Source: a marine group bacterium Sva0996 bin134
Lineage (GTDB): Bacteria; Actinomycetota; Acidimicrobiia; Acidimicrobiales; Bin134
DNA length: 64,000 nt
Direction: 5' to 3'
Assembly: GCA_002239105.1 (NCBI GenBank)
Contig: MPNQ01000007.1
Coordinates: 1 to 64,000 of the forward strand
Numbering within the stretch: the stretch's first letter is position 1; each line of letters starts with the position of its first letter. A model generated the notes under the pieces. That model had not been told where the DNA came from. It saw only the letters and a program-made list of their open reading frames with translations, and made no database searches. The translations under genes and the position numbers were made by a program. Positions 28,396 through 31,357 of this stretch are shown one piece after another.

Positions 28396-30129
28396 CTAGC
28401 TGGCTGCTCCCGCTCGGAGCAGCTTGCCGGGGCGGGCCCCGGTGTCGGTGCCGTTGCGGCGGGTCACCACTCCGCTGACCAGCGTGGCCACATACCCGGT
28501 GGCCCGCTGATCGAAGCGCCGGCCTCCGGCGGGGAGATCGGCCACCAGCTTCGGGGGGTGCAGCGTCAGGTGCTCGTGGTCGATCACGTTGATGTCGGCC
28601 TTCATGCCCGGCTCCAGCGTGCCCCGGTCGGTGAGACCGTACAAACGGGCGGTGTCGCGGGCCTGCTTTCGCACCACATACTCCAGGGGGAGCTTCTCGC
28701 CCCGCTGGCGGTCTCGGGCCCAGAACGTGAGCAGCCAGGTGGGCATGGAGGCGTCGCAGATGGCGCCGCAGTGGGCCCCGCCGTCCGACAGCCCCGACAC
28801 CCCGGACGGGTGCAGGAACATCTCCCGCACCGCGTCGGCGTTGCCGTCGCTGTAGTTGAGGAACGGGAACAGCAGCAGTGCCCGGCCGTCGTCTTCCAAC
28901 AGCAGGTCGTAAAGCAGGTCCTCGGTGTCGCGGCCTTGGGCCTCGGCGATGGCGGCCACCGATCGCTCGGGGCCGGGCTCGTAGTCGGGCGGGTCGCCCA
29001 GCACGTAGATCCGGTGGAGCTGGGTGCCCATGTACTCGGCGAACTGGTTGGTGAACGAGCTCTCCTCCGAGAGGATCGCCGCCTTGCGCTCGGGTCGGCG
29101 CAGCTCGGCCACCAATTCCTCGAGGGGCAGTTCGGCGATCTCGGCGAAGCTGGACCGGCTGCTGAACGCGTGGTTGGTCTGAAGCCCGATCAGGATTCCG
29201 TTGCACCGGGGCGCCACCTGGGGATGGAGCTGGGCCCCCTCGGCCACCGCATCAGCCGACAGATCCATGATCTCCCGCCACATCTCGGGAGCGGCGTCGA
29301 TCTGCACCAGGGCGAAGGTGACCGGTCGGCCGATGGTGGCCGACAGGCGGCGCATCCAGTCGACCTCTTTGGCCGGAGCAGCCAAGTCCTCGCCGATCAC
29401 GCCGGTGGGGGCCAGTTCGTAGAGTCCGTGGCCCACCTCAACCAGGGCCTCGCCGATGCCGAACAGCTCGTCCTCCGCGGCGAAAGTGCCGGGCACCGGC
29501 TCTCCGTCGATGGCCATGTGGGCAATGGTGCGCGACGTGGAGAAACCGAAGGCGCCAGCCCGCAGGGCGTCGGCCACGATGTCGCGCATCTGGGCGATGT
29601 CTTCGGGGGTGGCCGGCTCGTTCTTGGCCCCCCGCTCCCCCATCACGTAGGCCCGCACCGCACCGTGGGGCACCTGGCAGCCGATATCAAGGGACAAAGG
29701 CTTGCGCTCCAGGGCGTCGAGGTACTCGGGGAAGGTCTCCCACTCCCAGGTGATCCCCTCCGACAGGGCGGCACCGGGGATGTCCTCCACCCCCTCCATG
29801 AGCTGGATGAGCCATTCCTCTTTGCCGGGCCGCACCGGGGCGAATCCCACCCCGCAGTTGCCCATCATCACCGTGGTCACCCCGTGATGGGCCGACGGCT
29901 CCAGGATCGGATCCCAAGTGACCTGCCCGTCGTAGTGGGTGTGGCAATCCACAAAACCGGGAGTCACCACCAGTCCGTCGGCATCGATGACCTCTTGGCC
30001 CTCCAGATCGGGATTGCCGCCGGGATACACCCCGGCGATCTGGTCCCCGTCGATGGCCAAATCCCCCGTGAACGGCTCACCACCCGTACCGTCCACAATC
30101 AAACCGCCCTTGATCACCAGGTCGTGCAT
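28396..30129 (-). CDS. N-acyl-D-amino-acid deacylase-like amidohydrolase, copy 2
   Basis: This 577-residue paralogue of the gene at 26616-28361 shares DCHTHYDGQVTWDPILEP, GNCGVGFAPVRPGKEEW, SDGGAHCGAICDASMPT and the C-terminal GTLEPGMKADINVIDH. It is the first gene of a three-gene minus-strand operon that ends with a Rieske oxygenase. The start at 30129 is an ATG. It is divergent from the ArsC-like gene across a 98-base shared promoter region. Substrate specificity cannot be read from the sequence. Confidence 0.9.
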   Translation of the reverse strand: MHDLVIKGGLIVDGTGGEPFTGDLAIDGDQIAGVYPGGNPDLEGQEVIDADGLVVTPGFVDCHTHYDGQVTWDPILEPSAHHGVTTVMMGNCGVGFAPVRPGKEEWLIQLMEGVEDIPGAALSEGITWEWETFPEYLDALERKPLSLDIGCQVPHGAVRAYVMGERGAKNEPATPEDIAQMRDIVADALRAGAFGFSTSRTIAHMAIDGEPVPGTFAAEDELFGIGEALVEVGHGLYELAPTGVIGEDLAAPAKEVDWMRRLSATIGRPVTFALVQIDAAPEMWREIMDLSADAVAEGAQLHPQVAPRCNGILIGLQTNHAFSSRSSFAEIAELPLEELVAELRRPERKAAILSEESSFTNQFAEYMGTQLHRIYVLGDPPDYEPGPERSVAAIAEAQGRDTEDLLYDLLLEDDGRALLLFPFLNYSDGNADAVREMFLHPSGVSGLSDGGAHCGAICDASMPTWLLTFWARDRQRGEKLPLEYVVRKQARDTARLYGLTDRGTLEPGMKADINVIDHEHLTLHPPKLVADLPAGGRRFDQRATGYVATLVSGVVTRRNGTDTGARPGKLLRAGAAS

Positions 30130-30227: not shown

Positions 30228-30578
30228 GTGGCTGAGATTTTGGTTTATCACAACCCTGGTTGAGGCAAGTCTCGGGGCGCGCTCGAGATTCTCGAGTCGC
30301 GGGGCGTCGAGTTCGACGTTGTGCAATACCTCAAGAATCCGCTGGGGCGGAACGACTTGGAGCGGTTCTTGGAGTTGCTGCCGGGCGAGCCAGCCGAGCT
30401 GGTTCGAGTAGACGGCCACTTCAAGGAGCTCGGGCTCGATATCGGCGACTACCAGAGTGCCGACGCGGTGATCGACCTGCTGATGGAGCATCCCAAGCTG
30501 ATGCAGCGCCCCGTTGTGGTCCGCGGCGACCGGGCCGTAATCGCCCGCCCATCAGAGTTGGTAGAAGATCTGCTGTGA
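30228..30578 (+). CDS. ArsC/Spx-like reductase with TGA (probable selenocysteine) at the catalytic position
   Basis: Read through one TGA, the frame gives a 116-residue protein, the normal length of glutaredoxin-coupled arsenate reductases (ArsC/YfgD). The TGA at 30261-30263 is codon 12 in VYHNPG-U-GKSRGALEIL, matching the catalytic Cys12 of plasmid R773 ArsC in NPxCxxSR. The three ArsC active-site arginines fall at exactly 60, 94 and 107 (ELVRVD, LMQRPVVVRG, VIARPSEL). No other stop or frameshift occurs. A hairpin immediately follows the TGA. The GTG start (30228) gives the standard N-terminus. The enzyme probably reduces arsenate or another oxidised substrate. Alternatives are a nonsense pseudogene or sequencing error, both less likely given full conservation. 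Confidence 0.85.
30278..30301 (+). promoter_or_regulatory. Candidate bacterial SECIS hairpin in the arsC-like mRNA
   Basis: CGCG-CTCGAG (30278-30287) pairs with CTCGAG-T-CGCG (30291-30301), giving ten base pairs with one bulged T at 30297 and a short ATT loop, or a five-base GATTC loop if the closing pair opens. The loop lies about 25 bases after the TGA and has a G at its 5' side, as expected for bacterial SECIS elements that bind SelB. The hairpin lies within the coding sequence, which is normal in bacteria. Its bulge is on the 3' side, unlike E. coli fdhF. Confidence 0.65.
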
Positions 30579-30592
30579 GGGTTGAGAGCGGC

Positions 30593-31357
30593 ATGTCTCA
30601 GGCTGAGGCCAGAGCACGGCTGCATTCCCATTCGAGGCGCTCGAAGCCGCGGAAAACTCCAACGGAACCCGAGGTCCAGACGATCGTGGACGGGCCCGAC
30701 GGCAAGCCGTACCCGGTGGCCGCAGTGTGGCGGCGGGCTCTGGCCCGGATCATCGACGCCGTGACCGTGTTCTTCATCCAGTGGATGCTCACCGTCATCC
30801 AGGTGCTTTGGTTCATGGACGACGTGTCCACCCGGTGGCAGCCTGAGCCCTGGGGTCGGGCCACCGCAGCCATGCTGGGCTACGTGTTCTTCCACTTCGT
30901 GTACACCATGGTGTTCCTGCGCTGGAACGAGGGCCAGACCCCGGCAATGGACCTGTTGAAGCTCCGGGCGGTGCGCACCAAAGACGGCAGCCACCTCGGT
31001 CTCGGCCGGTGCGCGGCCCGCTGGCTGGTGGGCGGGGCGTCGTGGATAGTGCCCCCCGTGGCGCTCGGCGGGCTGATCGTGAACGCCGCCACCTATATCA
31101 CCGTCCCCTTTGACCGCCGTCGCCGCACGGTGTCGGACTGGATGGCCGGCACCACGGTCATCGCCTACAACCGCGACCAGGAAGACCCCGACGGGCAACT
31201 CGAGGAAGTGCTGGATGAGTTTGGCCGGCCGATGACGGTTCGCGAGCAGATCCGACGCAAGTACGGTCTCTTCGGCGGCCTGCCTGGTTTGGGTAGGCGG
31301 CTCGGCGACCGGAATCGGGATGACCGCAGATCACCGCGGGATTCCCAGAGGCATTGA
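30593..31357 (+). CDS. RDD-family membrane protein
   Basis: About 254 residues. A basic N-terminus is followed by the RDD-type first membrane segment (RRALARIIDAVTVFFIQWML), a second (AMLGYVFFHFVYTMVFL), the conserved GQTPAMDLLKLRAVRTKDGS block and a third segment, then a charged C-terminal tail. RDD proteins are small membrane proteins of mostly unknown role. The ATG at 30593 has a weak GAGAG site; an in-frame GTG at 30575 would overlap the stop of the ArsC-like gene (GTGA). The gene is in the same direction as that gene. Confidence 0.85.
   Translation: MSQAEARARLHSHSRRSKPRKTPTEPEVQTIVDGPDGKPYPVAAVWRRALARIIDAVTVFFIQWMLTVIQVLWFMDDVSTRWQPEPWGRATAAMLGYVFFHFVYTMVFLRWNEGQTPAMDLLKLRAVRTKDGSHLGLGRCAARWLVGGASWIVPPVALGGLIVNAATYITVPFDRRRRTVSDWMAGTTVIAYNRDQEDPDGQLEEVLDEFGRPMTVREQIRRKYGLFGGLPGLGRRLGDRNRDDRRSPRDSQRH

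Follow-up and report, generated by a model that had tools for sequence, protein, structure and literature searches.

Known ArsC-Family Proteins and Selenoproteins

Selenocysteine (Sec) has been found in enzymes of the ArsC family from the ocean. A Sec-containing arsenate reductase with a UxxS motif was described from the Sargasso Sea metagenome in 2005, where it was represented by 14 sequences (PMC1088965), and the GOS marine metagenome yielded 77 sequences of a Sec-containing UxxS protein, "ArsC 1", in 2008 (PMC2398784). An AEM review of 2026 files Sec-ArsC under TIGR00014 (PMC13188914). The gene described here lies in the window, the whole stretch of 64,000 nucleotides that was analysed. Its likeness to the published marine proteins (COG1393/PF03960/TIGR00014), as judged from their description, extends to the fold family, Sec at the position of the catalytic Cys, the UxxS motif, the common occurrence of Cys homologues, and a SECIS-like hairpin after the UGA. 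The published sequences are unassigned metagenome reads, whereas the window gene is genome-resolved in the Acidimicrobiales, with decoding machinery, a protein tree, and Sec/Cys switching among its relatives. An earlier reading of the DNA, made from the sequence alone, had noted that Sec-containing ArsC-like proteins were known from metagenomes, and this is indeed a published family (PMC1088965, PMC2398784). Since Sec-ArsC was already known from ocean metagenomes, the window gene adds a named bacterial order to the range of a known family, and the Sec-ArsC type of unassigned marine reads can now be tied to resolved genomes, to decoding machinery, and to RNA signals. In the PMC literature, as judged by titles and abstracts, no paper was found that has the selenoproteins of Acidimicrobiia as its subject.

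The R773 plasmid ArsC is a protein of 141 amino acid residues with a C-terminal tail and is encoded in an ars operon. This glutaredoxin-coupled enzyme (PDB 1j9b, 1i9d, 1jzw) can be aligned end to end with the window protein over a core of ~116 residues, and position 12, R60, R94, and R107 are shared. At position 12, R773 ArsC has Cys and the window protein would have Sec. The Spx/MgsR regulators (TIGR01617) have the thioredoxin-like ArsC/Spx fold in common with the window protein, which differs from them in having UxxS instead of CxxC and in keeping the ArsC catalytic arginines. Another ArsC-like selenoprotein is the "arsenate reductase-like protein" of NF041106 (PMC13188914). Its motif is UxxC rather than UxxS, and the NF041106 model gave no match to the window protein at E<=0.001.

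The Gene and Its Product

The coordinates of the locus are given in Table 1. In all probability, judging from sequence comparisons, the product of the gene is a Sec-containing ArsC-family oxidoreductase.

Table 1. Positions, strands, and properties of the features at the locus (window numbering).
Feature	Position	Strand	Remarks
Predicted selenoprotein gene, ArsC family	30228..30578	+	116 aa, UxxS motif, GTG start, TGA stop
In-frame TGA (UGA), codon 12, catalytic Cys12 position	30261..30263	+	79 homologues TGA, 42 TGC/TGT
Predicted SECIS-type hairpin	30278..30301	+	9 bp, one bulged base, apical loop 30287-30291 (GAUUC), within coding sequence
Membrane-protein gene 3' of the selenoprotein gene, RDD-like (by eye)	30575..31357	+	4-nt overlap (GTGA) with selenoprotein stop
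Divergent upstream gene, amidohydrolase / N-acyl-D-amino-acid deacylase-like (by eye)	28396..30129	-	Neighbour only

The reading frame begins with the GTG at 30228 and ends with the TGA at 30576-30578. Between the TGA of codon 12 and the terminal TGA lie 104 sense codons, giving a read-through product of 116 residues, including the TGA residue, with the N-terminal motif YHNPGUGKSR; the frame holds no further stop and no indel. When translation table 11 is applied without read-through, only a GTG fragment of 85 residues, 30321-30578, is predicted, which is all that a standard-code ORF search recovers of such a gene. The start and stop are conserved throughout the genus. The downstream membrane-protein gene is probably co-transcribed with the selenoprotein gene, and in the relative L051 both neighbours have the same order, with the same 4-nt overlap with the downstream gene. 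When the window was scanned mechanically for further TGA frames open to read-through, none resembled a selenoprotein by eye.

Profile searches of the window protein were run with Cys substituted at the TGA. The PF03960 ArsC model gave 47.6 bits (cut-off 24), and the TIGR00014 ArsC model gave 103.8 bits, just below its cut-off of 106.05; the same-genus protein L020 scored 108.2, above that cut-off. The best solved relatives in the PDB are glutaredoxin-type arsenate reductases, aligned over the full length. An identity as Spx was rejected, with TIGR01617 giving 46.3 bits against a cut-off of 75.05 and with a UxxS motif, not CxxC. The sequence-only reading had described a full-length, 116-residue read-through product with no second stop or indel, a TGA replacing the catalytic Cys of ArsC, and arginines at the R773 numbers 60, 94, and 107. 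The window sequence bears out each of these points, and 42 homologues have TGC or TGT at the position of the TGA. Its label "ArsC/Spx-type" can be narrowed to ArsC (TIGR00014/PF03960), whose catalytic residues the protein has, and away from Spx.

Proposed Function

We propose that the selenol stands in for the ArsC catalytic thiolate. Arg60, Arg94, and Arg107 would hold the substrate (arsenate, another oxyanion, or an oxidised thiol) for attack by the selenol, and a small thiol or a redoxin would then resolve the adduct. The conserved catalytic set, His8, Sec12, Arg60, Arg94, and Arg107, argues for an ArsC-type oxyanion reductase, and arsenate would be the likeliest main substrate, a choice we favour modestly. 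The arsenate role is uncertain because no match to the arsenite exporters Acr3 or ArsB, whose presence would support an ArsC role without defining it, was found in the gene's own genome, which is 94% complete, and because the gene lies outside an ars operon, its neighbours being the amidohydrolase, the membrane protein, and an ABC transporter, with no ars genes. The same two facts, together with the TIGR00014 score just under the cut-off, speak for a selenoprotein that is no arsenate reductase and that, with its ArsC/Spx fold, acts instead as a thiol-disulfide or peroxide reductase or as a redox sensor. This has a substantial probability, though one short of even, since the oxyanion-binding arginines of ArsC and His8 are conserved, the Spx models score well under their own cut-offs, and the same-genus L020 passes the TIGR00014 cut-off. 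The best match to MshA (mycothiol) in the genome scored 381.9 against a cut-off of 462.5.

Codon 12 in the Homologues

The search for relatives covered 198 related genomes at the level of the order, and a homologue was present in 120. The best match contained one internal TGA in 65 of these 120 genomes and none in 55, so that Sec appears widespread in an ArsC-type enzyme across an order of Actinomycetota. The homologue DNA was retrieved, and each gene was read with TGA as U before codon alignment. Among 121 distinct homologous genes, the aligned codon 12 is TGA in 79, TGC in 39, and TGT in 3, with nothing else at this position, and no gene has another stop inside the homologous region. In the genus itself, codon 12 is TGA in every one of the 18 other genomes that have a homologue, and the TGA-bearing genes include those of the one-contig genomes G007 and G014. 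Asn9, Arg60, Arg94, and Arg107 (R773 ArsC numbering) are invariant in 121/121 genes; His8 is present in 78 of the 79 Sec genes.

The TGA is not an error or the mark of a pseudogene, because 79 distinct genes, including 18/18 in the genus, share it and 42 have Cys. The draft genome consists of 77 contigs, which would leave room for a nonsense change or a miscalled TGC or TGG, but the same TGA occurs in independent assemblies, one-contig genomes among them, with the reading frame otherwise open, synonymous variation reduced after the TGA, and the TGA tracking the Sec machinery, so that we give such an error next to no weight.

Sec Decoding Machinery

We propose that the UGA at codon 12 is decoded as Sec by tRNA-Sec and SelB. 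The gene's own genome has a tRNA-Sec (67.5 bits, above the cut-off) with a UCA anticodon by ARAGORN, and a SelD (352.7 bits, also above the cut-off). That SelD (L047, G000:C27:5504-6448) is a selenoprotein candidate itself, with a TGA in the motif HGAGUAGK. A profile search of the assembly's 77 contigs found no SelA and no true SelB above the cut-off; the top "SelB" match, on contig C58, is EF-Tu, judged from its ORF, and was not counted. At the edge of contig C77, however, lies the 3' end of selB. It encodes 103 residues that are 88% identical to G007 SelB, followed by an apparent frameshift and the contig end, and the stretch of C77 that contains it is collinear with the selA-selB region in both G007 and G014. 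The absence of selA and the presence of only the 3' end of selB would follow from the contig ending inside selB. The genes selA and selB are adjacent in 21/21 other same-genus genomes, and we infer that the missing selA reflects an assembly gap, the selA-selB region lying beyond the end of C77, and that the strain has selA. The fragment (L166:4980-5203) has one apparent frameshift, ~215 nt from the contig end, which is probably an assembly error.

The in-frame stop is almost certainly a Sec codon, since dozens of related genomes that possess the machinery have it too, at the identical position in the active site. While the frame alone does not decide the inserted residue, reassignment of UGA to Trp or Gly, or a suppressor tRNA, is a very improbable source of the readthrough, as TGA is the normal stop of the same gene throughout the genus, the non-TGA homologues carry Cys only and never Trp or Gly, and tRNA-Sec and SelD are present.

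The sequence-only reading had called the gene a probable selenoprotein, and the conservation of the TGA, the Cys homologues, and the machinery support it. It had held a chance nonsense mutation at the redox Cys to be unlikely, in keeping with the same-codon TGA found since in 79 of the 121 genes. Aligned homologues show Cys or TGA only at codon 12, and the scattered stops that it named as counter-evidence are absent from all 121. The machinery whose absence it would have counted against itself is there as tRNA-Sec, a SelD of the Sec type, and the 3' end of selB; selA is the part not found in the assembly.

The Predicted SECIS Hairpin

The stem-loop just 3' of the UGA, in the coding sequence, would guide decoding as a bacterial SECIS, presumably through SelB. 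The window hairpin has a predicted stability of -13.8 kcal/mol, which is equalled in only 0.7% of synonymous recodings. In the window's genus (16 sequences), 95.8% of the stem cells are paired, versus 26-53% when the stem is slid. There are almost no compensatory changes (56/500 shuffles scored as high), the genus having too little variation for covariation. Synonymous diversity in the genus is 0.12 for codons 13-25 and 0.29 for codons 26-116; of all 8-codon stretches in the gene, the one beginning at codon 11 has the lowest value.

A different stem is found in a sister Sec clade, its loop being as far from the UGA (~26 nt) as in the window's genus. The RNA of this clade, CCUUGGC-GGUC-GCCGAGG, lies at a fixed distance, its loop 26 nt past the U of UGA, and the GGUC loop is invariant in most of the clade's genes. 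In 30 sequences, 93.3% of cells pair, and 13 cells are compensatory, with both sides changed. The covariation score is 0.260 versus a shuffled mean of 0.134 (0/500 shuffles as high), and it is at most 0.105 when the stem is slid. Cys homologues show 61% pairing at the position of this hairpin. Over all genes, the mean z of hairpin stability against synonymous recodings is -0.72 for Sec and 0.03 for Cys (p 5e-4, with ancestry ignored). A hairpin ~26 nt past the UGA thus fits a bacterial SECIS, on covariation in the sister clade and on stability and conservation in the window's own genus.

Most bacterial SECIS elements have a guanine at the first positions of the apical loop. In the genus members L018, L019, and L032, the predicted loop is CAUUC (Asp codon GAC), with no G at the first loop positions. 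A further Sec subclade (L121, L122, L124, L126, L131, L132, L142, L144, L149, and L150; families f7, f18, f40, and f52) has no GGUC hairpin and has instead a CAAUGC...GCAUUG hairpin closer to the UGA, which suggests SECIS turnover.

Exchange of Sec and Cys

Machinery was counted as present if selA, selB, or tRNA-Sec was found in a genome. By this measure it is present in 64/65 genomes with TGA-ArsC, in 34/55 with Cys-ArsC, and in 31/78 without a homologue. The difference between TGA and Cys genomes has a Fisher p of 9e-8, a statistic that ignores shared ancestry. The only TGA-ArsC genome without detected machinery, G187, is 83% complete. The protein tree requires ~7 Sec/Cys changes, at least 5 of them forced by well-supported branches, and G121 is a Cys member within a Sec clade and is without Sec machinery.

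It is tempting to propose, with slightly less than even confidence, that ArsC in the Acidimicrobiales has undergone at least 5-7 Sec/Cys exchanges that broadly track the machinery, that Sec subclades have differently built SECIS hairpins, and that one Sec lineage is apparently shared by transfer with Gammaproteobacteria, the MAGs being apparently from the same sponge studies. If this is true, the Acidimicrobiales are a natural experiment in Sec/Cys exchange and SECIS turnover within one enzyme family. Several natural Sec/Cys pairs among close relatives would permit a direct test of what Sec contributes to ArsC catalysis.

The Sec-ArsC proteins of six MAGs titled Gammaproteobacteria/Pseudomonadales (L062-L067) share 62-65% identity with the window protein and branch within the Sec clade of the Acidimicrobiales; transfer or mis-binned contigs are possible explanations of this placement. 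The genomes of family f54 have two different TGA-containing ArsC genes each (L087, L088; also L037/L125 and L039/L148). In the case of L087 and L088, both TGA-ArsC genes lie ~2 kb apart on opposite strands.
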